A stretch of 64,000 nt of DNA from positions 1-64,000 of IMG/VR virus record IMGVR_UViG_3300011013_000009; one strand, given 5' to 3'. Origin of the DNA: a virus. The position numbers were made by a program, and so were the translations under genes. The notes below the pieces were generated by a model. That model worked only from the letters and a program-made list of their open reading frames with translations, was not told the DNA's origin and ran no database searches. This document shows positions 353 through 13,567 of the stretch, piece after piece. Each line of letters opens with the position of its first letter. The first letter of the stretch is position 1.

Positions 353-367
353 ACCAAAACAAAGAAG

Positions 368-696: not shown

Positions 697-835
697 CTAT
701 ATTAAAGGACAAGAGGACCTAATTAAATATATTAAACAACAATTACTTTTAATGGCTAATAATTCACCAGATGAAACTATTATAGAGGATGTTGTTAACT
801 TTTTACAAAACCTTAAACCAAAAGAAGATGAGTAA
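689..835 (+). CDS. Unknown 48-residue protein
   Basis: Starts MSDYIKGQEDL in the +1 frame relative to the tail of the previous gene, at an ATG supplied by the leader repeat, and ends NLKPKEDE from the next repeat. Predicted to be mostly helical. The 8-base overlaps on both sides suggest coupled translation. No family recognised. Confidence 0.55.
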   Translation: MSDYIKGQEDLIKYIKQQLLLMANNSPDETIIEDVVNFLQNLKPKEDE

Positions 836-1001
836 AGAAGAATTTTATAGTAGACCGTCCTCAATAGGTTATTTGTATTGGTTAGATTCCAATAATGTTA
901 TTAAACAAGGACCTTCATTATGGGGTATAGGAAGATATAGAAGTTGGTTACTATTAGATAAGATACAAAATAGTAATGATTTTATTAAATGGTTAAATTA
1001 A
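828..1001 (+). CDS. Unknown small aromatic-rich protein, MSKEE start
   Basis: Fifty-seven residues from MSKEEFYSRPSS, rich in Trp and Tyr (SIGYLYWLD, GRYRSWLLL). An upstream in-frame ATG at 789 would add 13 residues, but that stretch lies inside the preceding gene, and the ATG at 828 has the conserved leader and MSKEE start, so 828 is preferred. No function recognised. Confidence 0.65.
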   Translation: MSKEEFYSRPSSIGYLYWLDSNNVIKQGPSLWGIGRYRSWLLLDKIQNSNDFIKWLN

Positions 1002-1008
1002 AACAAAG

Positions 1009-1149
1009 ATGAATAAGAAAATACACATAGCAAGTAGAGGTATGGGTAATATTGATAAGGATGGTAACATTACTGATTTTAAGTTGTTATCATATGATTT
1101 AGTTACACCACCATATGGAATTTTTATTAAACCAAAACAAAGAAGATGA
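1009..1149 (+). CDS. Unknown 46-residue protein
   Basis: Starts MNKKIHIASRGMG after a shortened leader (AAAACAAAG) and ends KPKQRR, the read-through of the next leader copy. Its TGA overlaps the next ATG (1146-1149). Reading frame is kept open only by this chain of overlaps; no domain is recognised. Confidence 0.5.
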   Translation: MNKKIHIASRGMGNIDKDGNITDFKLLSYDLVTPPYGIFIKPKQRR

Positions 1150-1424
1150 TAGTAATTAGAGATTTAAGTTCATATAGAGATGGTGGGACTATTTCGATTA
1201 AAGTGAATATTTCATTTGAAGGGTTTCGTTATGAAGGTGAAATTTGTTTAGACAAAAGAATGAGCGATAAAGGTGATGGTAAACTTTGGTTCGGTTATCC
1301 TGAAAAGGAAGGCTCTTCGATTATAGAAGATGTTAAACTTTTAGAACACATTAAAAAAGGAGTAATAGACTACAAAAAGTATCAGAATTTTAAACTTGAT
1401 GAATTAATAGAAAACTTAAAGTAA
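1146..1424 (+). CDS. Unknown 92-residue protein
   Basis: Begins MIVIRDLSSYRDGG and shows alternating hydrophobic beta-strand-like segments (ISIKVNISFEGFRYEGEICL) followed by a helical C-terminus. It is the longest gene of the first kilobase. Base composition is slightly less A-rich than its neighbours. No family recognised. Confidence 0.7.
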   Translation: MIVIRDLSSYRDGGTISIKVNISFEGFRYEGEICLDKRMSDKGDGKLWFGYPEKEGSSIIEDVKLLEHIKKGVIDYKKYQNFKLDELIENLK

Positions 1425-1426
1425 AG

Positions 1427-1606
1427 ATGAGTAAAGAATTAAAACTTACAATAAGTCCATATGAATGGGAAGGTAAAGAAGAATTTACTTATGAAGTAAG
1501 AGGTTTTAACATCTACTATTCAAAAGTTGGATTCCAAACTTATAAAGAAGCGGAAAAAGAAGGTCAATTAAAAGTTGAAGAATTAAACCAAAACAAAGAT
1601 GAGTAA
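1427..1606 (+). CDS. Unknown 59-residue protein
   Basis: Starts MSKELKLTISPYEWEG two bases after the previous stop, and ends ELNQNKDE, encoded by the next leader copy. Looks like a short beta-rich segment plus a charged helix. Overlaps the next start by 8 bases. Confidence 0.6.
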   Translation: MSKELKLTISPYEWEGKEEFTYEVRGFNIYYSKVGFQTYKEAEKEGQLKVEELNQNKDE

Positions 1607-1706
1607 TATAGAAATAATAGAAATCATTTTATTATGTTACATTGCATTTACTGTAACAATAATTGCTAATCGACAATGGCAAAACAAAGATGAAGAAATA
1701 TATTAA
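1599..1706 (+). CDS. Tiny single-span membrane protein (35 aa)
   Basis: MSNIEIIEIILLCYIAF... is one hydrophobic segment of about 20 residues followed by a polar tail RQWQNKDEEIY. The ATG lies in the leader repeat. Such tiny membrane proteins are common in early phage regions, but its role is unknown. Confidence 0.5.
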   Translation: MSNIEIIEIILLCYIAFTVTIIANRQWQNKDEEIY

Positions 1707-1839
1707 ATTTTTACTATTTAAAAACAGATTAAGAGATTACGGAATATCACCTTTAGATATATTTTTTCCAATTGTTAGTTGGATTAGTATTTTTAGCACA
1801 ATATTTCTTATTTACTGTTTATTTAATATTCTTAATTAA
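1690..1839 (+). CDS. Small membrane protein (49 aa)
   Basis: Begins MKKYIKFLLFKNRLRDYG and has a hydrophobic C-terminal segment (IVSWISIFSTIFLIYCLF) long enough to span the membrane. Overlaps the end of the previous gene by 17 bases and starts after ACAAAG, a shortened leader. Function unknown. Confidence 0.5.
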   Translation: MKKYIKFLLFKNRLRDYGISPLDIFFPIVSWISIFSTIFLIYCLFNILN

Positions 1840-1851
1840 AACCAAAAGAAG

Positions 1852-2109
1852 ATGGATGAAGATAAATATATTTTAACTTGGGCAAAAAGAAAAGGCTTTA
1901 ATGTTGGAACATTTATTAAGCCAATACAAATACTTGATGAATGGAATAACCCTACTGCAAATGATATTGAACTAATTGAAAATCCACTTTACTTTGACTA
2001 CAAGGGTAATCTTTGTACAATGAGAAAAGGTGTTAAAGCTGGTGGGTTTTGTATTAGGGATTCTTATGGTAATTGGGCTAAAAAACTAAAACTAAAAGAA
2101 GATGAGTAA
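1852..2109 (+). CDS. Unknown 85-residue soluble protein
   Basis: Starts MDEDKYILTWAKRKGFN after a full leader copy and ends KLKLKEDE, encoded by the next copy. Mixed alpha/beta with several Trp, Gly and Cys residues. Overlaps the next gene by 8 bases. No family recognised. Confidence 0.7.
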   Translation: MDEDKYILTWAKRKGFNVGTFIKPIQILDEWNNPTANDIELIENPLYFDYKGNLCTMRKGVKAGGFCIRDSYGNWAKKLKLKEDE

Positions 2110-2413
2110 TATGGAAGCAATAATTTTATTTTTTACGATAATTGGAATAATATTCTTATTCAATTTTATAACTAAACAAATAGAGAAAAAACAAAACCAA
2201 AGAATTGAAGAACATAAAAAAATATACCCAGAATTGGAAGCACTGGGAAGATTGTATAAACAAGATAATTTTGATACAAAAAAAGAAAGTTTATTAATAA
2301 TGCAACATCATTTGAGGTGTTCTAATGTTGAAGCACTTCGACAAAATTTTACGATCTCAGATTATCATAATAAAAAATACAAGGAAGAGCACTTAAAATT
2401 GTTCGGATGTTAA
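2102..2413 (+). CDS. Membrane-anchored small protein
   Basis: An N-terminal hydrophobic segment (about residues 6-24, ILFFTIIGIIFLFNFIT) is followed by a charged helical region of roughly 75 residues, so the bulk probably faces the cytoplasm. The start overlaps the preceding gene inside the leader repeat. Function unknown. Confidence 0.65.
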   Translation: MSNMEAIILFFTIIGIIFLFNFITKQIEKKQNQRIEEHKKIYPELEALGRLYKQDNFDTKKESLLIMQHHLRCSNVEALRQNFTISDYHNKKYKEEHLKLFGC

Positions 2414-2431
2414 TACTAAACCAAAACAAAG

Positions 2432-3037
2432 ATGAAAAAGATTAACATATGTATTTACGGATATGGACAAGAATTAGTTCAAGGAACTTGGTCTGATGAA
2501 GAAGTAGAAACGTTATTACAAGAATTAAATGACGACAATGACTTATCAACTGTAATATGGAACTTAGAAGAAATACTACCAGATAGTTACGATTGGTATG
2601 ATAGAGATGACCTATGTCATTATTATGGAGGCTTATCGGATAGCTGTAAGATAATAATATCATATGATGATAAAGAAGATACATATGATACTTTATTTGA
2701 TTTAGAAGCAATTGGTGCAATAATAGAATTTGAAGAAGTATATAATTATACTGGTAAGGACAATGTTATTACAATAATATCATCAGAAAAAGGCACAATG
2801 TTTGATGCTGATATTATATTAGAAGATGATGAAGAATTTGACTTATCAAAGTTACGGGTAGAATCAAAAGGAATAATATTCAACAACTATGAAAACGAAT
2901 TAATAACTAGTATATACTACAAAGACAAACAAATAGATGATGAAGGATGTGAAACAAATGGTAAAGGCTTTTATGCTTACCTAGATAAAAAGAAAAATCA
3001 ATGTATAGAAAAAGAAGAAGAAACAAAGAAGAGTTAG
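2432..3037 (+). CDS. Unknown acidic protein of 201 residues
   Basis: The largest gene of this cluster, starting MKKINICIYGYGQEL after a full leader copy. It is strongly acidic (many D and E runs), with an N-terminal part that looks like a small alpha/beta domain and a Lys/Glu-rich tail. Acidic early proteins of phages are often inhibitors or DNA mimics, but nothing here identifies a target, so that remains speculation. Its last 37 bases overlap the next small gene in another frame. Confidence 0.7.
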   Translation: MKKINICIYGYGQELVQGTWSDEEVETLLQELNDDNDLSTVIWNLEEILPDSYDWYDRDDLCHYYGGLSDSCKIIISYDDKEDTYDTLFDLEAIGAIIEFEEVYNYTGKDNVITIISSEKGTMFDADIILEDDEEFDLSKLRVESKGIIFNNYENELITSIYYKDKQIDDEGCETNGKGFYAYLDKKKNQCIEKEEETKKS

Positions 3038-3159
3038 CACTGGCATGGATAATAATAAGTATAGCTAGTATAATAAGTATAATAGTATTCCCACCAATAG
3101 TATTAATAGCTATAGTAATATACGCTATATGGACATTATCAAGACATTATTATTTTTAG
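3001..3159 (+). CDS. Small two-segment membrane protein (52 aa)
   Basis: MYRKRRRNKEELALAWIIISIAS... has a basic N-terminus followed by two Ile-rich hydrophobic stretches separated by FPP, the pattern of a helical hairpin with the positive end inside. The frame begins inside the previous gene and closes at a TAG that is itself the first copy of the TTTTTAG motif. It could be a holin- or superinfection-type small membrane protein; there is no direct evidence for either. Confidence 0.5.
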   Translation: MYRKRRRNKEELALAWIIISIASIISIIVFPPIVLIAIVIYAIWTLSRHYYF

Positions 3160-3810
3160 TCAATTTTTAGTCCATTTTTAGCTATTTCAGCAATGTATTT
3201 TTAGACCAAAGTACTTTTATTTTTAGAATGGTTTTTAGATTTAGTTACTACCAGGCGAAGAATAGGTGTGGTATGTAGTACGTTTACCTTCGGTCCTTTC
3301 AGGCCCTTCGGCAACCCGTATAAGTTCAAGACGCGGATATAGGCATTCCAGGAGTATAAGTGTGTAGTATGGAGTAAAGAATGGATAAAGTCCCCTTTCT
3401 ACCGGTATACATTATTTTTAGGGGGCATATGCTCTTTATCTCAACACCAGGTAGGTCCGGCCACCAGGAATTATTTTTAGTCCATTATACGTGCTTTTAG
3501 AGTCATTTACTTTTAGGCGGAATGGTCGTTATTTTTAGTCCTATATTTAGATTTACTTTTAGACCAAATGCCTTTTACTTTTAGACCAGGAGGCCAGGAA
3601 AGACGGTTTTATTTTTAGTCCAATATAATGTATTTTTAGATGCGTATGTATATATGCGTGTATATATATAGTTATTTTTAGACGGATATGCTATGTATTT
3701 TTAGTTTAATATATAGTCTGGGTATTCTATTTTTAGGGCAATATCCGCACTTTTAGTGCAGATCTGTTCGGTTCTCTAGCTATACGGAGTAAATTATTTT
3801 TAGAAGATCA
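3153..3810 (+). repeat. Gene-free region with about 20 TTTTTAG-type motifs
   Basis: No convincing gene is seen here. The stretch is punctuated by TTTTTAG (or CTTTTAG), mostly as TATTTTTAG, for example at 3153-3159, 3164-3170, 3175-3181, 3198-3204, 3220-3226, 3232-3238, 3415-3421 and 3474-3480, and then about every 15-40 bases to 3805. The motif is followed repeatedly by ACCA, TCCA or ACGG. The pieces between motifs, especially 3245-3410, are clearly richer in G and C than the surrounding genes, as structured RNA would be. All motif copies are on the same strand. They lack a TTTG element 20 bases upstream, so simple promoters are unlikely. Confidence 0.75.
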
Positions 3811-3867: not shown

Positions 3868-3972
3868 ATGGAATTAAAGATATTAGAAGATTATTTACAG
3901 GAATTGGTAGATAACGGGATTATTCATCTAGATATAAAGGATGACATATTATATATAGTTAAACGATTATGA
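3868..3972 (+). CDS. Tiny unknown protein (34 aa)
   Basis: MELKILEDYLQELVDNG... is a short helix-strand peptide behind an early promoter. Its TGA overlaps the ATG of the next gene (3969-3972), suggesting coupling. Function unknown. Confidence 0.5.
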   Translation: MELKILEDYLQELVDNGIIHLDIKDDILYIVKRL

Positions 3973-4247
3973 AATATTTAGGACAAGTAGAAATAGAAAG
4001 AACAGAAGATATCTATGAAGATACAGAAACTGCTAATGTATATAAAATAATAACTGAAAAGACGTATGATATCGGAATAGAATCTGTGCCGATTGAATTT
4101 AACAGCCGTAGCTACAACACTGCGAATAGCGAAATATATATTGAGATATATCAGGATTCGATGATGCATCCGAATAGTTTATATATAGAAAAAGACCCGG
4201 GACAAGTAGAACTTTTGTTGAAAAAGATTTTAGGTAGCGAAAAATAA
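3969..4247 (+). CDS. Unknown 92-residue protein
   Basis: Starts MKYLGQVEIERTEDIYEDTE and reads as a beta-rich domain with an acidic surface and a final helix (QVELLLKKILGSEK). Second gene of a two-gene unit with the 34-residue peptide upstream. No recognised family. Confidence 0.7.
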   Translation: MKYLGQVEIERTEDIYEDTETANVYKIITEKTYDIGIESVPIEFNSRSYNTANSEIYIEIYQDSMMHPNSLYIEKDPGQVELLLKKILGSEK

Positions 4248-4260
4248 ATTTGCTAAAAGA

Positions 4261-4292
4261 TTAGGATCTTTGAAATAAAGGTCTTATATTTA
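4261..4292 (+). promoter_or_regulatory. Early promoter, TTAGG / TATATTTA
   Basis: TTAGG at 4261-4265, an inner TTTGAAAT block, and TATATTTA at 4285-4292; drives 4314 and 4511. Confidence 0.7.
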
Positions 4293-4313
4293 TAGAAATT
4301 AAAATTTAAAGAT

Positions 4314-4514
4314 ATGAAAAAAGGACATTATATGATTACAGATCTGATCGCAGAACTTAAGATTTCATTAAAAAAAGTACCTGCGGTACCTAATTATAAT
4401 AATATTATTAAAATAGTACCTGCTTTAGAACAGTGGGTTAAAGAAAACGGAGATCTGGAATTTGACCCAGATGATATGGAAAAGTTTTTAATGGCAAAAA
4501 AATCAGAGAGATGA
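4314..4514 (+). CDS. Unknown 66-residue helical protein
   Basis: MKKGHYMITDLIAELKISLKK... appears mainly helical, with a D/E-rich motif DPDD near the C-terminus. A second possible start is the Met at residue 7. The TGA overlaps the next ATG by four bases. Function unknown. Confidence 0.65.
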   Translation: MKKGHYMITDLIAELKISLKKVPAVPNYNNIIKIVPALEQWVKENGDLEFDPDDMEKFLMAKKSER

Positions 4515-4720
4515 TAGAAGTAAAAATGACAGTTAGATATCAGGATATATTAATATCTGCCGGGAGATATATTCCAACCGGGACATCGTTTTTGGGTAAG
4601 AAGCTTTATAGAAATATTGATAATGGACAAATTGTTTCCATTGGAAATTTTGAGATTAAAATGATTAATAAATATAATGAGTCTCATGGTATCAATGAGT
4701 GGAAAAACATTGTGGGATAA
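4511..4720 (+). CDS. Unknown 69-residue protein
   Basis: Begins MIEVKMTVRYQDILISAGRYIP; predicted beta strands early and a polar tail. It is coupled to the preceding gene through ATGA. No family recognised. Confidence 0.65.
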   Translation: MIEVKMTVRYQDILISAGRYIPTGTSFLGKKLYRNIDNGQIVSIGNFEIKMINKYNESHGINEWKNIVG

Positions 4721-4748
4721 AAGACGGAAAATAAAGTTAGCAAAATGC

Positions 4749-4777
4749 TTGACACGCATTGATATTATTCTTATATT
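4749..4777 (+). promoter_or_regulatory. Early promoter with TTGACACGCATTGA block
   Basis: TTGACA (4749-4754) and TATATT (4772-4777) are exactly 17 bases apart, within the conserved block TTGACACGCATTGA. This differs from the TTAGG class; see also 5059, 10255 and 12184. Confidence 0.65.
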
Positions 4778-4794
4778 AGTGTAAATTAAAAGAT

Positions 4795-5040
4795 ATGACA
4801 AATTACAAATTAGAATTAGAAGGACATTATGTCACAATCGAGATGAATGAATTTGAGGATAACGTTGCTCAGATTTTTAAAAATAACGATTTAATAGCTG
4901 AATATAAATTCGGTGGAGCTGGAGCAACTCATATATATCATTTGGAAGGTAAAAAACTTATTGATTTACTGGTTGCTATATTATATGAGCAAGCCGACAA
5001 AACTGTTGAAGTGTTAGCTAGCGAAACAAAAAAAGTTTAA
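4795..5040 (+). CDS. Unknown 81-residue protein
   Basis: MTNYKLELEGHYVTIEMNEFED... begins with beta-strand-like alternation, carries a Gly-rich turn (FGGAGATH) and ends in a helix (LIDLLVAILYEQADK). Single-gene unit with its own promoter. Function unknown. Confidence 0.7.
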   Translation: MTNYKLELEGHYVTIEMNEFEDNVAQIFKNNDLIAEYKFGGAGATHIYHLEGKKLIDLLVAILYEQADKTVEVLASETKKV

Positions 5041-5058
5041 AAAAAGTTAGCAAATTGC

Positions 5059-5089
5059 TTGACACGCATTGATTTATTTATTATATTTA
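5059..5089 (+). promoter_or_regulatory. Early promoter with TTGACACGCATTGA block
   Basis: TTGACA (5059-5064), 17 bases, TATATTTA (5082-5089). The upstream GTTAGCAAA is shared with the promoter at 4749. Confidence 0.65.
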
Positions 5090-5112
5090 TATAAATTATA
5101 AAATTAAAAGAT

Positions 5113-5376
5113 ATGACAAAAGGAATTAATAAGCTATATTATAGCTTTAAAGAAATTATTGCAATTTACGCAGAAGCGTTGGAAAATGAAACGGGAGAGC
5201 CTATTGAAAATCTAGAAGCTGTTATGGATTTTGATAATTACAAAATCGAGTTTGATGCAAATGATGATAAAACTGTTATTAAAATATGTGGAGCTTTTAT
5301 ACAATTTGAAATGGATGACACAGATGTATCTGTTGTTAATTATATGGATGGCTCTGGCTGGTATGTTGGATATTAA
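5113..5376 (+). CDS. Unknown 87-residue acidic protein
   Basis: MTKGINKLYYSFKEIIAIYAEALENE... has an N-terminal helix and an acidic beta-rich C-terminal half ending GSGWYVGY. Separate transcription unit between two early promoters. No family recognised. Confidence 0.7.
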   Translation: MTKGINKLYYSFKEIIAIYAEALENETGEPIENLEAVMDFDNYKIEFDANDDKTVIKICGAFIQFEMDDTDVSVVNYMDGSGWYVGY

Positions 5377-5393
5377 AAAAAGTTTAAAAAAGA

Positions 5394-5424
5394 TTAGGAT
5401 AATTGAATTATTATTCTTATATTA
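5394..5424 (+). promoter_or_regulatory. Early promoter, TTAGG / TATATTA
   Basis: TTAGG (5394-5398) and TATATTA (5418-5424) 19 bases apart, before the gene at 5441. Confidence 0.65.
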
Positions 5425-5440
5425 GTGTAAATTAAAAGAT

Positions 5441-6022
5441 ATGGAAAAAAGAAATACGCCGGCGGGCAATACGTATTGGGATGAAAATGGAGCATACCAA
5501 AAAGAATTAAATGAACTATATAACAAACTAGTTCCGATGAGCGGCGATGCCGAAACAGTACATGGAGAATTAGTTAGAGCAGTAAATAGATTATATTACG
5601 AATATTGTAACAATGGGAATTGCAATGCTATTGTACAAGAATATGTCGAGCAGGAATATACATGTTATAATTGTGACGGTACTGGTAATAGAGATTATCA
5701 CGACCACGAGATTGATGAATGGGAGTCTGTAGAATGTGATGACTGTTATGGCGATGGCTATCAATATGAAGAAGAAGAAGGCGATCGTTATATGGATTCA
5801 TATTATGACAGAATGTTAGATTTCATAAGAGATCATGTTTCAAATTCCTATCCGGTAGTTGATGCATTGGAAAGATTTATATTAGATGGTCCTGGCTATT
5901 CGAATTATCAATTTAATGATGCTGAGTATGAGTATTACAATGATGTAGTAGATACTGTAATGCATTATGTATTGAATTCAGAGAATATACCTAATCCGGA
6001 ATATAAACCAGAAAAAGTTTAA
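5441..6022 (+). CDS. Acidic protein with DnaJ-like zinc-binding CxxCxGxG repeats
   Basis: In the 193 residues, two cysteine motifs lie about 24 residues apart: CYNCDGTG (around residue 78) and CDDCYGDG (around residue 105). This is the spacing of one zinc site of the DnaJ cysteine-rich domain, where two CxxCxGxG motifs bind one zinc. No J domain is present, so it is not a DnaJ protein. The flanks are acidic and Tyr-rich. DnaJ-type zinc domains usually bind unfolded protein; here only the zinc site is supported, the role is unknown. Confidence 0.7.
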   Translation: MEKRNTPAGNTYWDENGAYQKELNELYNKLVPMSGDAETVHGELVRAVNRLYYEYCNNGNCNAIVQEYVEQEYTCYNCDGTGNRDYHDHEIDEWESVECDDCYGDGYQYEEEEGDRYMDSYYDRMLDFIRDHVSNSYPVVDALERFILDGPGYSNYQFNDAEYEYYNDVVDTVMHYVLNSENIPNPEYKPEKV

Positions 6023-6028
6023 AAAAGA

Positions 6029-6060
6029 TTAGGATAATTGAAATATTATTCTTATATTTA
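6029..6060 (+). promoter_or_regulatory. Early promoter, TTAGG / TATATTTA
   Basis: TTAGG (6029-6033), inner ATTGAAAT, TATATTTA (6053-6060), before 6087. Confidence 0.7.
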
Positions 6061-6086
6061 AAGTATAATAATAAAAATTAAAAGAT

Positions 6087-6263
6087 ATGGGAAATTTTAA
6101 AAAATATTTAAAAAAAGAATTAGACAGGTTGATTAAAGACGCAGAAGAAATTTGGGAGTCAGAAATCAATCCGGATACAGGAGCTCAATTAACATATGAT
6201 GAGCTTCAAGAAGTAGATAGAGAATTAGAAAGATTATATAGGATGAAAAACAATCCTTTATAA
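6087..6263 (+). CDS. Small helical protein (58 aa)
   Basis: MGNFKKYLKKELDRLIKDAEEIWE... is strongly charged and helical, probably a helical hairpin around the NPDTGAQLT turn. Has its own early promoter and ends just before the structured RNA region. Function unknown. Confidence 0.6.
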   Translation: MGNFKKYLKKELDRLIKDAEEIWESEINPDTGAQLTYDELQEVDRELERLYRMKNNPL

Positions 6264-6267
6264 AAAA

Positions 6268-6725
6268 GCTTGCCATAGCTATTAAATTAGGCGTGGACCT
6301 TTATTGATATGTGATAGCTTCACATAGGTGTTGATCAACCGGTTAAAGTAATCCATGTAGGCAAGTAAATTGTGTAATAATCCAACTACGATAACTTCAT
6401 GGGGGATAGAGGTGAATATAGTGTAGCTTGAAAGATAGCACCCGAATAACTCTATTACACATAAATTTGATTACTACAGGAGAGATAGGTATCACCTTGT
6501 ATCCTGCGGAGGCTTATAATCTCACGTGCTGGAGGGGTAATCATTTAAATGCGTACACCCATGACAGAAGGGCGTAGTTCAATTGCACCTGCCGCTAAGC
6601 AGGAAGATACAATAGCAAAACCTCTGAATATTCTGTCAGGTATTATAAGTGGGCCTTGGAGTCAGGACTCCCAGACTGAGTAGGTTAGTTTTTCATATCT
6701 CTTGCCTACCATATGTGGCCCACTT
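6268..6725 (+). ncRNA. Candidate structured non-coding RNA of five stem-closed domains
   Basis: No convincing reading frame occupies this stretch, but five consecutive segments of 76-99 bases are each closed by a good stem: 6268-6274/6360-6366 (7 bp), 6371-6379/6453-6461 (9 bp), 6468-6474/6537-6543 (7 bp), 6562-6569/6631-6638 (8 bp) and 6647-6655/6717-6725 (9 bp). Inner hairpins support this: 6308-6314/6320-6326, 6292-6297/6352-6357, 6477-6481/6502-6506, 6588-6592/6599-6603, 6658-6662/6667-6671 and 6680-6684/6705-6709. It is much richer in G and C than nearby genes. The fourth domain recalls a tRNA (GTAGTTCAATTG, anticodon-like stem) but has a 6-base loop and no T-arm. Large phage RNAs such as GOLLD or ROOL are possible relatives; identity is unproven. 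Confidence 0.6.
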
Positions 6726-6812
6726 TATTTTTAGAATGATATGACACATTTATTTTTAGAATAATATATAGCTATTTTTAGAATGTATTTTTAGAATAAT
6801 ATTTAGTTTTAG
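6726..6812 (+). repeat. TTTTTAG motif copies after the structured RNA
   Basis: At least five copies of TTTTTAG or TTTTAG follow the last RNA stem directly, as TATTTTTAGAAT repeated. They are the same motif as in 3153-3810, on the same strand, which links the two gene-free regions. Confidence 0.7.
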
Positions 6813-6813
6813 A

Positions 6814-6844
6814 TTTGGATTTTAGAAATAGATTTATTATATTA
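6814..6844 (+). promoter_or_regulatory. Early promoter, TTTGG / TATATTA
   Basis: TTTGG (6814-6818) and TATATTA (6838-6844), with 20 bases between TTTG and TA, the exact Bacteroidota arrangement. Drives 6875. Confidence 0.65.
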
Positions 6845-6874
6845 TAGTATATTAACCATAAAAAGAAAGACCAA

Positions 6875-7156
6875 ATGGCAAAAACAAAAAGAACACCAGA
6901 ATTTCAATTCGGAATTGAATTGACAAGACCGTGGAGTCCAGAAATGTACTCACACAATGATCAAGTAAGAGAAGAAGCTCAGACAATTCTCAATGAAATG
7001 ATTGACAACGGAACAGTAACTGTTAACGGGACTGATATCAGAACCGAAGATACACTTACAAAACAAACCGTAGCTGATCTAAAATATTGGCAATTGGATA
7101 AGTTACACAAAGAACTTAACCTACCATTAACAGTAGGCTTTGTGGGATATAATTAA
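6875..7156 (+). CDS. Unknown protein, paralogue of the 7913 gene
   Basis: Ninety-three residues. The N-terminus FGIELTRPWSPEMYSHND and the C-terminus VGFVGYN closely match the product of 7913-8281 (GIEITKPWSKEMYAHND, EGFVGFK), while the middle differs in length. So the two are diverged duplicates of a small family. A strong intrinsic terminator follows. The basic N-terminus (MAKTKRTP) could bind nucleic acid; function unknown. Confidence 0.75.
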   Translation: MAKTKRTPEFQFGIELTRPWSPEMYSHNDQVREEAQTILNEMIDNGTVTVNGTDIRTEDTLTKQTVADLKYWQLDKLHKELNLPLTVGFVGYN

Positions 7157-7178
7157 TATTTTTTAATTATTATTATTT

Positions 7179-7205
7179 AGGGGCACAGAAATGTGTCCCT
7201 TTTTT
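7179..7205 (+). terminator. Intrinsic terminator after 6875 gene
   Basis: A 9-bp stem (7179-7187/7192-7200, one G-U pair) with a GAAA loop is followed by six T. Closes the transcription unit starting at 6844. Confidence 0.85.
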
Positions 7206-7260
7206 ACTGTCCGGGCAGTAAGAGCTGTGAATAACTTTTTAAAAACGTTTTTAGAAAAGA

Positions 7261-7291
7261 TTAGGATAATTGAATTATTAACCTTATATTA
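7261..7291 (+). promoter_or_regulatory. Early promoter, TTAGG / TATATTA
   Basis: TTAGG (7261-7265) and TATATTA (7285-7291), with the inner ATTGAAT block; before 7323. Confidence 0.65.
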
Positions 7292-7322
7292 GAGTATTAA
7301 TAATTTAAAAAAATAAAAATAT

Positions 7323-7496
7323 ATGAATAGAAAATTTGAAGACATGAAGTTTGTGAAGAATGATGTAGCAGTTTGTGGCCATTGTGGATGTGGTGAAGTT
7401 AAAGAAGAGTTTTATACCGGAGTAATGATATGTGAAGAATGTCAGATAATTGAAGGTGATATTAATTATGTTCCCTATGATGAATATTATGATTAA
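7323..7496 (+). CDS. Small zinc-ribbon protein (57 aa)
   Basis: Contains CGHCGCG near residue 18 and CEEC near residue 37, a two-knuckle zinc ribbon, then an acidic Tyr-rich tail. Single gene between two early promoters. Zinc ribbons of this size often contact nucleic acid or RNA polymerase, but the partner is unknown. Confidence 0.65.
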   Translation: MNRKFEDMKFVKNDVAVCGHCGCGEVKEEFYTGVMICEECQIIEGDINYVPYDEYYD

Positions 7497-7512
7497 AATA
7501 GTTTAAAAATAA

Positions 7513-7544
7513 TTAGGTTAGTTGAAAAATTAACCTTATATTTA
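7513..7544 (+). promoter_or_regulatory. Early promoter, TTAGG / TATATTTA
   Basis: TTAGG (7513-7517), GTTGAAAA, TATATTTA (7537-7544); before 7568. Confidence 0.65.
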
Positions 7545-7567
7545 AGAAATATTAAAAATTAAGAGAT

Positions 7568-7840
7568 ATGAAAATTAAAATTTTAGAAGGCTATGATGGC
7601 TTTGAAAGAAGTGTTAATGGCACAGTTGATTTGGATGGTAATAATGTGTATAAATTTGAATTAGACACTTATGACGGTATGACAAGTATATATTTGATAG
7701 ACGGGTATATTAGAATTAACTTAGAGGATGAAGATGAGTGTGATAGATATATTATTGAGGATGGTATTGAGATATATGACGAAATATTAGATTTTGTTAA
7801 TAACGAAGGCTATGACTTTATTGGAGTAGATTTTGCATAA
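7568..7840 (+). CDS. Unknown 90-residue acidic beta-rich protein
   Basis: MKIKILEGYDGFERSVNGTVD... shows regular strand-like alternation and a high Asp/Glu content, ending in a helix-turn segment GYDFIGVDFA. No recognised family. Own promoter, single gene. Confidence 0.7.
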   Translation: MKIKILEGYDGFERSVNGTVDLDGNNVYKFELDTYDGMTSIYLIDGYIRINLEDEDECDRYIIEDGIEIYDEILDFVNNEGYDFIGVDFA

Positions 7841-7857
7841 AAAAAGTTGCTAAAAGA

Positions 7858-7889
7858 TTAGGATCTTTGAAATAAAGTACTTATATTTA
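7858..7889 (+). promoter_or_regulatory. Early promoter, TTAGG / TATATTTA
   Basis: TTAGG (7858-7862), CTTTGAAAT, TATATTTA (7882-7889); before 7913. Confidence 0.7.
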
Positions 7890-7912
7890 AGAAATAATAA
7901 AAATTAAAAGAT

Positions 7913-8281
7913 ATGGCTAAAAAGAAAAAAGAAAAAGTATTCCAGCACGGAATTGAAATTACAAAGCCTTGGAGCAAAGAGATGTATGCTCACAATGACA
8001 AGGTTGCAACGGAGGTAAGAGATGAAATTTGGGAAAGATGGGCTAAGGCAGTTTTAGATGCAAACATAGACAAAAATGGCGCATGGGAATATGATGCTAC
8101 TGAGGAAATGGAAGACATCCAGATAGCTGTTACATGTTACGGATTTGGATTTGGGCATAGTATAGGAGATGTAGAGGATGAATTTATAGATGAAATGGAA
8201 AATCTTCCTTATTACCGACTAAATCAAGTAGTAGAAGATTTAGAAATAGAATTAGAAGAAGGGTTTGTTGGCTTTAAATAG
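7913..8281 (+). CDS. Unknown protein, paralogue of the 6875 gene
   Basis: One hundred and twenty-two residues with the family N-terminus FQHGIEITKPWSKEMYAHND and C-terminus EEGFVGFK. Compared with the 6875 product it has an extra acidic middle part, including a FGFGHSIGD segment. A very basic start (MAKKKKEK) precedes the shared block. Its role is unknown, but keeping two copies under separate promoters suggests distinct uses. Confidence 0.75.
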   Translation: MAKKKKEKVFQHGIEITKPWSKEMYAHNDKVATEVRDEIWERWAKAVLDANIDKNGAWEYDATEEMEDIQIAVTCYGFGFGHSIGDVEDEFIDEMENLPYYRLNQVVEDLEIELEEGFVGFK

Positions 8282-8305
8282 CCAGCAAACTTTTTTTACT
8301 TTTTA

Positions 8306-8337
8306 TTAGGATCTCTGAAATAAAGGTCTTATATTTA
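8306..8337 (+). promoter_or_regulatory. Early promoter, TTAGG / TATATTTA
   Basis: TTAGG (8306-8310), CTCTGAAAT, TATATTTA (8330-8337); before 8361. Confidence 0.7.
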
Positions 8338-8360
8338 AGTATAATTAAAAATTAAGAGAT

Positions 8361-8657
8361 ATGAAGAAACCAGAAAAACAAGTTTTGTCCTTTAGTGGAT
8401 TTGAGAAGATGCTCCAAGATTTATATCAGGACGCATATTATGAATTAGATTTTATTAATCCTGTACTATGGTATGCAATATATATTGCTGCAGAGGCTGA
8501 TGCTGATAACACAGTTAATGGCGCAATGGCATATTATGACAATGTAGAAATGATGATGATGTTCAATACTACTTTTTTAGATGCAATGGTAATGCTCAGA
8601 GGTAAATTGACAATGTTGGATGAGTTTGCAATTAAAGATTCATATAGATTAAACTAA
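8361..8657 (+). CDS. Unknown 98-residue helical protein
   Basis: Begins MKKPEKQVLSFSGFEKMLQDLY and contains a Met-rich run (EMMMMF) and mostly helical segments. First gene of a small unit with 8662. No recognised family. Confidence 0.7.
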   Translation: MKKPEKQVLSFSGFEKMLQDLYQDAYYELDFINPVLWYAIYIAAEADADNTVNGAMAYYDNVEMMMMFNTTFLDAMVMLRGKLTMLDEFAIKDSYRLN

Positions 8658-8661
8658 GAAG

Positions 8662-8799
8662 ATGATGAAAGAACCTAATTTTAAAGAAGAACCAAAACTA
8701 TGGGTTTTGTGGAATATGTTTACTTATAAAAATAATGAAGAAACTGCAATTAAGTTATTAAAACAAAAAATGTGGTTACAACGAGACAGAATAACCTAG
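8662..8799 (+). CDS. Tiny unknown protein (45 aa)
   Basis: Starts MMKEPNFKEEPKLWVLWNMF after AAGAAG, a leader-like A-rich start, four bases behind the previous stop. Trp-rich helix. Its end overlaps the hairpin 8783-8836. Function unknown. Confidence 0.45.
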   Translation: MMKEPNFKEEPKLWVLWNMFTYKNNEETAIKLLKQKMWLQRDRIT

Positions 8800-8836
8800 G
8801 CGTGTCACCATGCTGTAAGAATCCTAGTGATGTCTC
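8783..8836 (+). other. Nested inverted repeat between two small genes
   Basis: GAGACA/TGTCTC (8783-8788/8831-8836) encloses CTAGG/CCTAG (8796-8800/8823-8827). There is no T-tract, so it is not a standard terminator; it may be an RNA structure that controls the following gene. Confidence 0.4.
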
Positions 8837-8858
8837 TTAAATTTAAAACCAAAAGAAG

Positions 8859-8978
8859 ATGAAGAAGATAATAGCCTCCATGAAGGAAATATATGATGCA
8901 ATGAAACCGAGTGTACACCGTAACAAGAAGAAGTATACTAGGAAAGATAAGCATAAAAAAAAGTTCCCGAAAGATTAG
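8859..8978 (+). CDS. Tiny very basic protein (39 aa)
   Basis: MKKIIASMKEIYDAMKPSVH... followed by a Lys/Arg-rich tail. It is preceded by a perfect AAACCAAAAGAAGATG leader, the same as in the 1-2.4 kb cluster, which supports the start. Its stop lies within the next promoter. Possibly nucleic-acid binding by charge alone. Confidence 0.5.
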   Translation: MKKIIASMKEIYDAMKPSVHRNKKKYTRKDKHKKKFPKD

Positions 8979-9006
8979 GTTATATGAAATATTATTCTTA
9001 TATTTA
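8975..9006 (+). promoter_or_regulatory. Early promoter, TTAGG / TATATTTA
   Basis: TTAGG (8975-8979), ATATGAAAT, TATATTTA (8999-9006); before 9029. Confidence 0.7.
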
Positions 9007-9028
9007 AGAAATTAAAAAATTAAAAGAT

Positions 9029-9199
9029 ATGTATAAGATTATTAAATTTATTTGTATATGGGTGTTACCTATAGGATTAGTAAAATTACTTCCACTTGAT
9101 AAGTTATTCGGTATTGACAGCATTGGAGAGCAATTGTATTACAGAATAGATGACTCTAAAAAACATAGAGGCGCGGGTATATTAATTCGTAAATCTTAA
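9029..9199 (+). CDS. Small protein with N-terminal hydrophobic segment (56 aa)
   Basis: MYKIIKFICIWVLPIGLVKLL... could be a membrane anchor; the rest is polar (GEQLYYRIDDSKK). Single gene with its own promoter. Function unknown. Confidence 0.55.
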   Translation: MYKIIKFICIWVLPIGLVKLLPLDKLFGIDSIGEQLYYRIDDSKKHRGAGILIRKS

Positions 9200-9217
9200 A
9201 AAAAAGTTCCCGAAAGA

Positions 9218-9249
9218 TTAGGACTTACGGAAAACCTACCTTATATTTA
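9218..9249 (+). promoter_or_regulatory. Early promoter, TTAGG / TATATTTA
   Basis: TTAGG (9218-9222) and TATATTTA (9242-9249) 19 bases apart; drives 9266 and probably 9437. Confidence 0.65.
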
Positions 9250-9265
9250 TATAAAATTAAAAGAT

Positions 9266-9430
9266 ATGTTAGACGTAAAAAGATATTCAGAAAACTTCCA
9301 ACTTAAGTGTTGGGCGACTTATTATAATGTATATGAATTCATTATAAAGCACGGAGAGTTATTAGCATTAGATACTTACCCGACACCGGTAGTAAATTAT
9401 TTTAAAAATTGGATTGATTCCAGAAAATAA
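9266..9430 (+). CDS. Tiny unknown protein (54 aa)
   Basis: MLDVKRYSENFQLKCWATYYN... is an aromatic-rich helical peptide. It lies 6 bases before the HD-domain gene and shares its promoter, so the two are likely one operon. No family recognised. Confidence 0.55.
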   Translation: MLDVKRYSENFQLKCWATYYNVYEFIIKHGELLALDTYPTPVVNYFKNWIDSRK

Positions 9431-9436
9431 AGAGAC

Positions 9437-10012
9437 ATGAAAGAATACAAATATTATGATAGAGTATTAGCGCTGGCTACATTAGCACACGACGATCAGA
9501 AAAGAAAATATTCTGATGAGATGTATATAACACATCCGATTGCTGTAGCAAAGATATTAGATGATACTTTCGAAGTTCCTGAAGATCTTATCTATGCAGC
9601 ATTATTACATGATGTGATAGAAGACACTACCGTTACTAGATCGATGTTAACAATTCAGTTAATGATGATCTTTAACGACCAGAAATTAGCCTATAGGGTA
9701 GTTAACCTAGTAACAGAACTAACCGATGTATACACCAGTGAAGCATATCCAGGTTTTAATAGAAGGCAACGAAAGCTATTAGAGCATGACAGGATAGCTA
9801 GAATTAGTGATGAAGCAAAGTTAATTAAGTTAGCAGACCTTATCCACAACACCAAGTCTATTGTCGAAGAAGATCCGTCTTTTGCGAAAGTGTATCTTAA
9901 AGAGAAAGACCATATGTTAAAGGAAATGATGGATGCACGAAAATCTGACACGTTTACTTTGGAATTTGTCCAGCTATATGAATTAGCAAAACATCATAAT
10001 AAAGTTTCATAA
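9437..10012 (+). CDS. HD-domain alarmone (ppGpp) hydrolase-like protein
   Basis: The 191 residues match the RelA/SpoT-type hydrolase domain seen in stand-alone MESH1-like enzymes: H18 in ALAHDDQKRK, H33 in YITHPIAVA, the hallmark HDVIED (58-63), and a later KLADLIHN motif that supplies the last metal ligand. Enzymes of this family use Mn2+ to remove the 3' pyrophosphate of (p)ppGpp. The length fits a single-domain hydrolase, with no synthetase part. In an early phage region it could lower host alarmone levels and keep growth-type metabolism running; that is inference. Another nucleotide substrate is possible, since HD enzymes vary. Confidence 0.8.
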   Translation: MKEYKYYDRVLALATLAHDDQKRKYSDEMYITHPIAVAKILDDTFEVPEDLIYAALLHDVIEDTTVTRSMLTIQLMMIFNDQKLAYRVVNLVTELTDVYTSEAYPGFNRRQRKLLEHDRIARISDEAKLIKLADLIHNTKSIVEEDPSFAKVYLKEKDHMLKEMMDARKSDTFTLEFVQLYELAKHHNKVS

Positions 10013-10015
10013 AGA

Positions 10016-10047
10016 TTAGGTTATATGAAATATTATTCTTATATTTA
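10016..10047 (+). promoter_or_regulatory. Early promoter, TTAGG / TATATTTA
   Basis: TTAGG (10016-10020), ATATGAAAT, TATATTTA (10040-10047); before 10071. Confidence 0.7.
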
Positions 10048-10070
10048 AGAAATAATAAAAATTAAGAGAT

Positions 10071-10226
10071 ATGTATAGTTTAAATTGTAATTATTATGAT
10101 CGTGAATTCGAGACGATCGATGACTTAATTAGTGATGTTCTAGATAGTGGCATGGACCCGAATTATGAAATTACCCGCAACGGAGTAACCACGGGCGAGT
10201 GTTTATTTGATTTAATTGGATTTTAA
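10071..10226 (+). CDS. Tiny acidic protein (51 aa)
   Basis: MYSLNCNYYDREFETIDDLI... reads as a small acidic alpha/beta peptide with the pattern sDvlDsGmDPnYeItrnGv, resembling the tail part of a short DUF-type domain but not identified. Own promoter. Confidence 0.6.
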   Translation: MYSLNCNYYDREFETIDDLISDVLDSGMDPNYEITRNGVTTGECLFDLIGF

Positions 10227-10254
10227 AAAAGTTTAAAAAAAGTTAAGGAAAAGG

Positions 10255-10285
10255 TTGACACGCATTGATCTTTTCCTTATATTTA
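10255..10285 (+). promoter_or_regulatory. Early promoter with TTGACACGCATTGA block
   Basis: TTGACA (10255-10260), 17 bases, TATATTTA (10278-10285). Third clear copy of this class; drives 10310 and 10428. Confidence 0.65.
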
Positions 10286-10309
10286 AGTATAATTTAAAAT
10301 TTAAGAGAT

Positions 10310-10426
10310 ATGAAAAAGAGAAAAATTGAAGCCGGAGTATTCTTCGCAGGAGTATTAGGATTTGCCGTATTGACAGCAATCCTTGTTTATAATGTATTGT
10401 TTAACGGATTAGTAATATGTATTTAA
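10310..10426 (+). CDS. Tiny single-span membrane protein (38 aa)
   Basis: MKKRKIEAGVFFAGVLGFAV... is a positive N-terminus and one long hydrophobic helix. It ends one base before the next start, which also encodes a membrane protein, so the pair may work together. Confidence 0.55.
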   Translation: MKKRKIEAGVFFAGVLGFAVLTAILVYNVLFNGLVICI

Positions 10427-10427
10427 G

Positions 10428-10625
10428 ATGAGAGAGTTATTTGATATGTTCGACAATAAGATAGCTGTTATAAAGACAGCAATGATAATGATGTGTACAA
10501 TATTGTTTGTTGTAGGATCATGTTTAATCAATCCGATGATATTACTTTACACGGCGTTGGTAGCGTTGGGTATAGCATTATTATATTGTATATTCTTAAT
10601 AATATACATGTTTGTAGATGATTAA
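10428..10625 (+). CDS. Two-span membrane protein (65 aa)
   Basis: Two hydrophobic segments, about residues 13-33 and 36-60, separated by a short NP turn, with few charges: a membrane hairpin. Follows another tiny membrane protein in the same unit. Holin-like size, but its early promoter argues against a lysis role. Confidence 0.6.
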   Translation: MRELFDMFDNKIAVIKTAMIMMCTILFVVGSCLINPMILLYTALVALGIALLYCIFLIIYMFVDD

Positions 10626-10641
10626 AAAAGTTTAAAAAAGA

Positions 10642-10673
10642 TTAGGACTTACGAAATAAAGGTGGTATATTTA
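10642..10673 (+). promoter_or_regulatory. Early promoter, TTAGG / TATATTTA
   Basis: TTAGG (10642-10646), TTACGAAAT, TATATTTA (10666-10673); drives 10697 and the sigma factor gene. Confidence 0.7.
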
Positions 10674-10696
10674 AGTATAATTAAAAATTTAAAAAA

Positions 10697-10894
10697 ATGA
10701 GTAAAAATAAAGGTTACGGTTATGATAGACAAGACGCAGTCATCAGCAAATTCCGAAGAGATGTAAAGTCATCTAATAAGACGTCAGCAGTAGGTCAAGC
10801 AATTGCAAGAGGCAAGAAAGCTAAGAAAAAAATCGAAGAGACTGAAGAGGTAAGATTTTCTCCCAGAGCTTTAATAGAATTAAATAATGGGTAA
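10697..10894 (+). CDS. Small basic protein upstream of the sigma factor (65 aa)
   Basis: MSKNKGYGYDRQDAVISKFRRD... is rich in Lys and Arg with an internal KKAKKKIEE run. It overlaps the sigma gene by 8 bases and shares its promoter, so the two are very likely coupled. It could be a nucleic-acid- or polymerase-binding partner; nothing in the sequence proves it. Confidence 0.65.
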   Translation: MSKNKGYGYDRQDAVISKFRRDVKSSNKTSAVGQAIARGKKAKKKIEETEEVRFSPRALIELNNG

Positions 10895-11624
10895 GATATA
10901 TGTAAGCACCGGTGCTGTCATCTCAGATGTTGATAGCACCAAGCTTTACCTGAATGAGATAAAGCAGGCAAAGTTATTGACCCAGGAAGAAGAAAAGGCG
11001 TTAGCCGAAAGAATAAAAGACGGAGACCAATCCGCAGTTAACAAGTTAGTAGAATCTAATCTCCGCTTTGTAGTACAGGTTGCTAAGCAATACCAGGGAA
11101 TGGGAGTTGAGTTAGAAGACTTGATTGGCTTTGGTAACTTAGGATTATTCGAAGCTGCGAAAAGGTTTGAAGCTGATAGAGGAATCAAATTCATTAGCTT
11201 TGCAGTATGGTATGTTAGAGCTGAATTACAAAAGGCGTTGAATGACACCGGAAGAACAGTAAGGATACCTTCCCACAAAACAATGACAGAAGAATACTCA
11301 ACCGTTAGCACCGGAATGAAAATAGGTGAAGGAGAGGATTCGGAAACCTATGCGGATAGATATCTTCCCGCTGAAAAGGAGACTCCACAGAGTGCATTGC
11401 AGGATTTGAAATATGACTTGACAAGAGCATTAGGATTGTTAAAGCCTAAGCAGAGAACGGCTATTGAAATGTTTTATGGTATTGGGTATGACTATCCAAA
11501 GCCGATGGAGCAGATAGCTATCGAGTTATCAGTAACCGGAGAGCGAGCGAGGCAGTTAGTTCGTCAAGCGGAGCTCGGATTGAAGAAAATGTCAGGAATA
11601 AAATTGTTAGAACAATACCTATAA
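10887..11624 (+). CDS. RNA polymerase sigma factor, sigma-70 family
   Basis: A 245-residue RpoD-like sigma factor. Region 1.2 (LYLNEIKQAKLLTQEEEKALAERI, about residues 20-44) and region 2 (NLRFVVQVAKQYQG...DLIGFGNLGLFEAAKRFE...FISFAVWYVRAELQKAL, about 58-118) are clear. A shortened middle follows, then region 4 with a helix-turn-helix (KPKQRTAIEMFYGIG...QIAIELSVTGERARQLVRQAE, about 185-233). It lacks region 1.1 and has a reduced region 3. It should bind host core polymerase and redirect it, perhaps to the TTGACACGCATTGA promoters or to middle genes; the target is inference. It is distinct from the gp55-like factor at 28701. Confidence 0.9.
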   Translation: MGKIYVSTGAVISDVDSTKLYLNEIKQAKLLTQEEEKALAERIKDGDQSAVNKLVESNLRFVVQVAKQYQGMGVELEDLIGFGNLGLFEAAKRFEADRGIKFISFAVWYVRAELQKALNDTGRTVRIPSHKTMTEEYSTVSTGMKIGEGEDSETYADRYLPAEKETPQSALQDLKYDLTRALGLLKPKQRTAIEMFYGIGYDYPKPMEQIAIELSVTGERARQLVRQAELGLKKMSGIKLLEQYL

Positions 11625-11628
11625 AAGA

Positions 11629-11660
11629 TTTGGTACTTTGAAATATTATTCTTATATTTA
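11629..11660 (+). promoter_or_regulatory. Early promoter, TTTGG / TATATTTA
   Basis: TTTGG (11629-11633), CTTTGAAAT, TATATTTA (11653-11660), an excellent match to TTTG / TAnnTTTG; before 11684. Confidence 0.75.
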
Positions 11661-11683
11661 AGAAATAATAAAAATTAAGAGAT

Positions 11684-11908
11684 ATGAAAGAAGGAGTAAG
11701 TTTAAACGTAGTAGTATTCATAGTATTCCTGATACTAAAATTAGTAGGAGTGATAACATGGAGTTGGGTTTGGGTAACGAGTCCAATTTGGATAGGAGTG
11801 ATATTAGGCATATTGGTTTTGATAGCAATCGAATTATTGAAAGCGTATTTAGATAAAAGATCCAATAAGAGATTCGAAGAGTATAGAAAAAATAAGTTTA
11901 ATAAATAA
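11684..11908 (+). CDS. Two-span membrane protein (74 aa)
   Basis: Hydrophobic segments at about residues 7-27 and 33-53 are followed by a basic tail (YLDKRSNKRFEEYRKNKFNK). Likely a hairpin in the inner membrane with the tail inside. Function unknown. Confidence 0.65.
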   Translation: MKEGVSLNVVVFIVFLILKLVGVITWSWVWVTSPIWIGVILGILVLIAIELLKAYLDKRSNKRFEEYRKNKFNK

Positions 11909-11913
11909 GAGAT

Positions 11914-12156
11914 ATGAAAGATTATAGTAAAATGACAACCGATGAATTGGTTGAGGAATTAGACAGATTAGAATTAGGATTAGAAATGAACTTGGTGATG
12001 GATGGAAGCGGAGAGTTAGGCGATGTTATCGGCAAAGGATATTATGAAGACATTAATGCTATCGAAAAGGAATTGCAGACAAGACCTGATAACCCTTATA
12101 AGTTCGATGGCAATATCGATCCCGATGATTATTTTACCGATGATTTACCTTTCTAA
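11914..12156 (+). CDS. Unknown 80-residue acidic protein
   Basis: MKDYSKMTTDELVEELDRLELGL... begins with a helical hairpin typical of short phage proteins (MTTDELxxEL) and ends in an acidic disordered tail (DPDDYFTDDLPF). It is 5 bases behind the membrane protein gene, in one unit. The acidic-Phe tail ending DDLPF resembles that of single-stranded DNA-binding proteins, but no OB fold is present. Confidence 0.65.
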   Translation: MKDYSKMTTDELVEELDRLELGLEMNLVMDGSGELGDVIGKGYYEDINAIEKELQTRPDNPYKFDGNIDPDDYFTDDLPF

Positions 12157-12183
12157 TTCAGGAAAAAAAAGTTCGCAAAAAGG

Positions 12184-12214
12184 TCGACTCGTATTGATAT
12201 TATTCTTATATTTA
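12184..12214 (+). promoter_or_regulatory. Early promoter, diverged TTGACACGCATTGA class
   Basis: TCGACTCGTATTGA (from 12184) and TATATTTA (12207-12214) keep the 17-base spacing of the second promoter class with three changes in the block. Confidence 0.55.
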
Positions 12215-12237
12215 AGAAATAATAAAAATTAAGAGAT

Positions 12238-12270
12238 ATGAAAAATAATAAAAAAAGATTAGAGATATGA
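12238..12270 (+). CDS. Possible 10-residue leader peptide
   Basis: An ATG with the usual GAGAT leader encodes MKNNKKRLEI and stops at a TGA that overlaps the next start (ATGA, 12267-12270). It may be a short upstream frame that couples translation, or simply a duplicated leader. Too short to judge by coding bias. Confidence 0.3.
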   Translation: MKNNKKRLEI

Positions 12271-12506
12271 AAGAAGGTAACAAGGTTAAGATAATAGTTT
12301 GGACTGATAGACGCAGTGAGAAACAAACAATAGACTTAGATGCTAGCCAATTGGAAAGCGCTGTAAGTTCAGGACATGACAATGATTGGAACTGGAATAT
12401 TGATAAAATTAAATATCACTTAAATAGTGGAGATAAGAAAGGCACCACAGATATAACAAGATATCATGGTGGTGGTTCTGATGCTGTTTATTGGGAATTA
12501 AAATAA
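12267..12506 (+). CDS. Unknown 79-residue protein
   Basis: MKEGNKVKIIVWTDRRSEKQT... looks like a small beta-rich domain with a HGGGSDAVYWEL end. Second frame after the short leader peptide. No family recognised. Confidence 0.65.
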   Translation: MKEGNKVKIIVWTDRRSEKQTIDLDASQLESAVSSGHDNDWNWNIDKIKYHLNSGDKKGTTDITRYHGGGSDAVYWELK

Positions 12507-12516
12507 TAAAAAAAGA

Positions 12517-12548
12517 TTAGGTTAATTGAAATATTATCCTTATATTTA
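12517..12548 (+). promoter_or_regulatory. Early promoter, TTAGG / TATATTTA
   Basis: TTAGG (12517-12521), ATTGAAAT, TATATTTA (12541-12548); before the AAA ATPase gene. Confidence 0.7.
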
Positions 12549-12570
12549 AGAAATAATAAAAATTAGAGAC

Positions 12571-13521: not shown

Positions 13522-13540
13522 ACCATGTCTCTTAGGTTTA

Positions 13541-13567
13541 AGGAGTCGGAAACGGCTCCTTTTTTTC
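13541..13567 (+). terminator. Intrinsic terminator after AAA ATPase
   Basis: An 8-bp stem (13541-13548/13553-13560) with a GAAA loop and seven T residues, the same design as the terminator at 7179. Confidence 0.85.

Follow-up and report, generated by a model that had tools for sequence, protein, structure and literature searches.

Known RNAs that block ribosome binding sites usually have one or a few targets. The c4 RNA of phages P1 and P7 holds complementary bases in loops, which pair around a ribosome binding site and block translation (PMC12197685), and RNAIII of Staphylococcus aureus masks ribosome binding sites with C-rich hairpin loops (PMC2837412). In T4, the protein RegA acts at the AUG of about 30 early mRNAs, in their start regions (PMC3014915). 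GOLLD and ROOL are large structured RNAs, some of which are found in phages (PMC12286853). Here, we describe a candidate structured RNA of a phage in which one hairpin loop is complementary to the start region shared by many early genes. We propose, with a probability of about 0.58, that it acts as an antisense RNA in the manner of RNAIII and c4, blocking ribosome binding on the early genes as a class. The proposed RNA resembles c4 in being a phage RNA with its complement in loops and a ribosome binding site as its target; c4, however, has a single target, the ant mRNA, in temperate phages, whereas the RNA proposed here would be directed at a start that many early genes of a T4-like phage have in common. 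With RNAIII it has in common that it is large and multi-hairpin, that a small ORF accompanies it, and that loops of one motif would face several mRNAs. By contrast, RNAIII is a cellular virulence regulator with C-rich loops against Shine-Dalgarno sequences, and the phage RNA has a U/C-rich loop against a AAGAGAUAUG start; the two are likened by anatomy, not by sequence. RegA has the same role as that proposed here but is a protein; a search that recovered T4 RegA itself at E 2e-75 did not detect it in 11 records of this phage group, which are possibly incomplete.

The DNA analyzed, called the window below, is the 64,000-nucleotide stretch at positions 1-64,000 of IMGVR_UViG_3300011013_000009, a viral record of 77,441 bases in full. 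The phage is T4-like by its terminase, which is of T4 type (Pfam). The best matches of this terminase among cultured phages are in Microcystis phage Mel-JY01 (56%) and in the immuto group of Flavobacterium phages (52%); the latter match, together with promoter form, leads us to infer a Bacteroidota host. In the region from about 4.3 to 14.3 kb, most genes are preceded by a promoter of their own (like TTGAAATATTATTCTTATATTTAAG) and have leaders that are alike, typically ending AATTAAGAGATATGAAA; the start consensus drawn from 27 related loci approximates TAAAAAATAAGAGATATGAAAA. Gene starts in the window fall into two classes: TTAAGAGATATGAAA-like starts predominate among the genes at 4314-14307, and many genes at 149-3037 have AAACCAAAAGAAGATG-like starts that do not pair with the D5 loop described below. 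The phage encodes a sigma factor (10887-11624; sigma-70 regions 1.2, 2 and 4 by Pfam), which is conserved in the group and might read the early or the later promoters. A 193-aa protein with paired CxxC-type motifs (5441-6022) is weakly Anti-TRAP-like (E 4e-4, below the Pfam cut-off), and its relatives occur in four otherwise different viral contigs. Permuted tmRNAs (Rfam RF04321) were found in two viral contigs, L004 (7950-8320) and L005 (6098-6339); both share a relative of the gene at 5441-6022, and the L004 tmRNA lies just upstream of it.

The stretch of interest, 6268-6725, sits between ORFs 6087-6263 and 6875-7156 (93 aa). Its parts and immediate neighbors are listed below.

6038..6059, + strand: early-type promoter TTGAAATATTATTCTTATATTT, before the 58-aa ORF and of the form found at most genes between 4.3 and 14.3 kb
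6087..6263, + strand: 58-aa ORF, directly 5' of the RNA; its start region pairs with the D5 loop at -13.3 kcal/mol
6268..6366, + strand: D1, closing stem of 7 pairs (6268-6274/6360-6366); z -2.7, better than shuffles
6371..6461, + strand: D2, closing stem of 9 pairs (6371-6379/6453-6461); inner fold z -0.4, chance level
6468..6543, + strand: D3, closing stem of 8 pairs (6468-6475/6536-6543); inner fold z -0.5, chance level
6563..6637, + strand: D4, closing stem of 7 pairs (6563-6569/6631-6637); z -1.4, without a tRNA signal
6647..6725, + strand: D5, closing stem of 9 pairs (6647-6655/6717-6725); z -2.6, better than shuffles
6727..6794, + strand: four copies of ATTTTTAG, directly 3' of the RNA; arrays of the same word adjoin the corresponding RNAs of relatives

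The initial annotation, made from the sequence alone, had read this stretch as a candidate large structured RNA of five tandem domains in a gene-free, G+C-richer region. All five of its closing stems, of 7-9 pairs, are present, in segments of 75-99 bases; there is no ORF of at least 50 aa, and the G+C content is 0.37-0.48 in the domains against about 0.31 in the surroundings. The claim of a large fold held in part: D1 and D5 fold significantly, whereas D2-D4 and the global + strand fold are at chance level (whole stretch, + strand z -0.46, - strand z -2.04), and D2-D4 are not kept apart when the + strand is folded without constraint. Five tandem closed domains arose in 2 of 300 dinucleotide shuffles, a result that is only suggestive because the thresholds were chosen after the sequence had been seen. 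Taken as a whole, the five-segment structure exceeds chance only modestly. A structured non-coding RNA at 6268-6725 is plausible, and roles of D1-D4 in stability, as a scaffold or in processing would be guesses. The promoter at 6038-6059 likely drives a transcript that ends with this RNA. A terminator-like TTTATTTTTAG stands directly 3' of the D5 closing stem; a strict terminator scan listed none at the D5 3' end. The 58-aa ORF has no Pfam match, and a search for its relatives found none.

A resemblance to GOLLD and ROOL, a tRNA-derived look of D4 and a covariance-model search for known families had all been put forward in the initial annotation. At the gathering threshold, none of 4227 Rfam families, GOLLD and ROOL included, matched anywhere in the window; no GOLLD or ROOL match appeared over 6200-6900 at E up to 10, and eight relatives returned tRNAs only. 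ARAGORN found no tRNA in the window, and the suggestion for D4 was not borne out, this domain giving neither an ARAGORN tRNA nor an Rfam tRNA match at E up to 10 over 91 bases. Also rejected on Rfam and ARAGORN were a tRNA or tRNA cluster and a tmRNA, permuted tmRNA included, as was membership of the c4 family on Rfam. The window RNA is thus not a member of a described family. An ornate large RNA akin to GOLLD and ROOL, or a degenerate cluster of tRNAs, would agree with the size, the phage context and the five segments, and with the real tRNA-Met inside the corresponding RNA of relative L027; set against the missing Rfam matches in the window, the tRNA-only result in the relatives and a D4 without tRNA signal, we consider this reading very improbable, and the least probable of those discussed here.

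The initial annotation did not mention that the loop of D5 is complementary to the gene starts of the phage. The elements concerned, together with two further candidates, are as follows.

6680..6709, + strand: inner hairpin of D5, GTAGG / CCTAC, which presents the antisense loop
6689..6704, + strand: antisense loop UUUUUCAUAUCUCUUG, complementary to AAGAGAUAUGAAAAA, the start consensus of the early genes
8824..8841, + strand: possible third antisense element GATGTCTCTTAAA, intergenic; scan rank 3
13524..13565, + strand: second antisense element CATGTCTCTTAGG, in the AAA-ATPase 3' UTR, directly before the terminator; scan rank 2

The hairpin has the layout GTAGG-TTAGTTTTTCATATCTCTTG-CCTAC, and its loop word TTTTTCATATCTCTT is the exact complement of AAGAGATATGAAAAA, a word that occurs where early genes start. 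Bases 428-442 of the stretch, which lie in this loop, were hit repeatedly by 15-base matches when 24 relatives were searched at blast level. Against the start consensus the loop forms 16 contiguous pairs, and the next-best + strand site in the 77-kb record forms 12. The run is 15 bases with Watson-Crick pairs only, a length reached in none of 200 genome shuffles; with G-U pairs allowed, a 16-pair run arose somewhere in 5 of 200. Four of 200 shuffled loops equaled the D5 loop on median energy. When the + strand of the first 16 kb was scanned without bias, at every fourth base, for the energy of pairing to sampled gene starts of the phage itself, the D5 loop ranked first (z -6.9), followed by the AAA-ATPase 3' UTR site (position 13521, z -6.4) and the intergenic site (position 8825, z -5.1). 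Of the 36 starts before 16 kb, 16 pair with the D5 loop at -10 kcal/mol or better, as do 5 of the 68 after; in the predicted fold of the full RNA, the larger part of the loop (6689-6700) is unpaired. Collectively, these results show an accessible loop that is complementary to the phage's own gene starts beyond chance, as an antisense RNA would have.

Corresponding RNAs were sought in related phages, for which about 130 loci were gathered by scans based on the genes of the AAA-ATPase and the sigma factor. Some kb upstream of these genes, most close relatives have a region that is free of genes, richer in G+C and furnished with ATTTTTAG arrays; in many of them, an early-type promoter box and a structured RNA come next. 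The order of promoter, small ORF and RNA is found in several relatives too; in L013, L018, L023 and L070 the RNA follows the promoter without a convincing ORF between them. The ATTTTTAG arrays have 4-16 copies on the + strand and lie at 3152-3803 and 6727-6794 in the window; they also occur in L007, L013, L014, L015, L018, L023, L026, L027, L029, L030 and L070, confined to gene-free G+C-richer regions. They are possibly origin iterons, minus-strand promoters (CTAAAAAT) or RNA sites.

Two domains characterize the RNAs of relatives, domain X (CCGACRGGGUCCGGG..GUGCUCGAAAGACAC..CCCGGCGGAUCGG) and domain Y (GCCGGUAACCACAAGC..GCUAACACCUCCGGC), and their covariance models, R1 and R2, found 9 and 8 loci, respectively. 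Compensating base changes, which the initial annotation had asked for, are present in 13 of 36 predicted pairs in an alignment of seven relatives' RNAs that does not contain the window RNA; the aligned RNAs are clearly structured, and the window RNA is one sequence, for which no homologue was found. The phage collection held no DNA homologue, nor was one found in 24 related records (the three best hits are in coding DNA, the others mostly the anti-start word, i.e. the complement of the start motif), by a pattern scan of viral contigs, or via relatives of the 58-aa ORF and of ORF 6875-7156. Against the window, R1 and R2 gave best matches at E about 1, outside 6268-6725, and a homology of D2 to domain X, suspected from GCUUGAAAGAUAGCACCC, was unsupported by the covariance model. 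The RNAs with domains X and Y (in L013, L018, L023, L031, L033 and others) share with the window RNA the genome place, a nearby ATTTTTAG array and a 3' anti-start hairpin; the domains themselves, however, were not found in the window. On these models, the window RNA is not a demonstrable homologue of the X/Y RNAs, and the five-unit plan, which had been thought possibly new, showed no conservation, with the relatives' domains being different and their models missing the window. The L013 region had no match in the phage collection, the domain X pattern was absent from the bacterial and archaeal genome contigs scanned, and no published description of such RNAs was found in a literature search of partial coverage. 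In L027, the corresponding structured RNA (3905-4310) contains a tRNA-Met gene (4031-4104), which is flanked by domain Y and by a hairpin with two copies of CATATCTCT in its loop.

Nearly all of the relatives' RNAs have a hairpin loop that is UUUCUCUCUCUUAUU-like or holds CAUAUCUCU, the complements of the upstream and the downstream half of the start consensus, respectively. In all but one of 17 loop sites examined, the loop is closed by a stem of 6-13 pairs, of differing sequences; the L030 hairpin is a poor case, and at random positions the best stem is typically 5-6 pairs long. That the loop is a presented one is therefore argued from its recurrence with differing stem sequences, more than from stem length alone. 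T runs 3' of several of these hairpins place the loop within a terminator. Moreover, the word (A/T)CATATCTCTC stands between the stop codon and the terminator of several genes, including that of the AAA-ATPase, and also after a tRNA. Hence, at the level of a class of loops, though not of any direct homologue to the window RNA, a hairpin-held complement appears to be kept in the relatives.

The occurrence of these words follows the use of the start motif. Anti-start words are present in the non-coding + strand DNA of 38 of 41 loci that use the motif (0.41 per kb) and of 1 of 39 loci with few start-motif starts (0.010 per kb), sets that include duplicates and overlapping pieces, so that independent cases are fewer. 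In the best terminase match, Microcystis phage Mel-JY01, CATATCTCT was absent from both strands. An anti-start site came first in the energy scans of L007, L010, L013, L014, L015, L018, L027, L029, L031, L033, L070 and L084; it was not first in L037, whose starts lack GAG, or in L020, and in L023, L025 and L030 the hairpin loop was not top-ranked.

The relation to the start motif bears on whether a functional RNA exists here at all, since the complement might instead be a DNA-level or minus-strand feature, such as a remnant minus-strand gene start or a bidirectional DNA site, or a chance match. The - strand does fold a little better, the CTAAAAAT arrays can be read as a minus-strand motif, and some 16-pair runs with G-U pairs arise in shuffles. 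However, a minus-strand gene behind the complement was rejected, as its reading ATG AAA AAC TAA stops after three codons and has no early leader upstream. In the relatives, moreover, the loops lie in hairpins with + strand T runs and + strand early promoters, and their occurrence tracks the start motif. We regard a feature of this kind as highly unlikely.

In the antisense mechanism that we favor, an early transcript would carry the 58-aa ORF and then the structured RNA as its probable 3' part. The D5 loop would pair with the shared translation start region of early mRNAs, over a span that opens about 10 bases 5' of the AUG and closes about 5 bases past the A of that codon; this pairing would block ribosome binding, so that the early genes are repressed as a class. 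Self-control of the 58-aa ORF is also possible, because its own start can pair with the loop. Complementarity, rank, specificity, hairpin presentation and the recurrence of loops in relatives are computed results; transcription, pairing in the cell, repression, its timing and any contribution of D1-D4 are what we infer. Class-wide repression by RNA is favored because the loop complements start regions as RNAIII and c4 do, and because RegA was not found; the RNA could take over part of the job of T4 RegA.

The pairing with the upstream ORF (-13.3 kcal/mol) would also suit a role in cis, in which the 3' end of an early transcript (terminator or 3' UTR) is the unit, the words act for example by pairing mRNA ends or in decay, and the window RNA is mainly a long 3' UTR. 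Anti-start words between stop codon and terminator, in genes of relatives and in the ATPase gene of the window, and the recurrent order of promoter, small ORF and RNA are consistent with such a role. Nevertheless, the RNAs without a convincing ORF after the promoter do not fit it, and the D5 loop pairs better with the starts of other genes (up to -21.9 kcal/mol) than with its own ORF. This reading is unlikely.

The complementarity data would also fit a positive or ribosome-directed role: the RNA might bind early mRNAs or the 30S subunit and aid translation or stability, for example as a stand-in for the hidden anti-Shine-Dalgarno of Bacteroidota. Bacteroidia ribosomes are reported not to recognize Shine-Dalgarno sequences (PMC9976891), and a phage could thus profit from another way of recruiting ribosomes; the loops are, besides, located in early-type transcripts. 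By contrast, a duplex over the AUG is expected to hinder the ribosome, as RNAIII does on coa mRNA (PMC2837412), the RNA has no recognized ribosome-binding part, and the Bacteroidota host is itself a probable assignment. We therefore hold a positive role to be quite unlikely.

The repressive antisense RNA proposed here is unusual in two respects: it would be aimed at a start sequence common to an expression class, and its element turns up repeatedly across a phage group, in dedicated RNAs, in the loops of terminators and in 3' UTRs. A wider version, which we offer tentatively and consider doubtful, is a lineage-wide RNA network in which dedicated RNAs and several 3' UTRs complement the shared leader, so that the build-up of early transcripts would shut off early translation and replace RegA. 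If class-wide repression is true, the window RNA would be a self-directed, class-wide RNA switch in a lytic phage and a possible substitute for RegA, and a number of non-coding phage RNAs without an Rfam family would gain a function.
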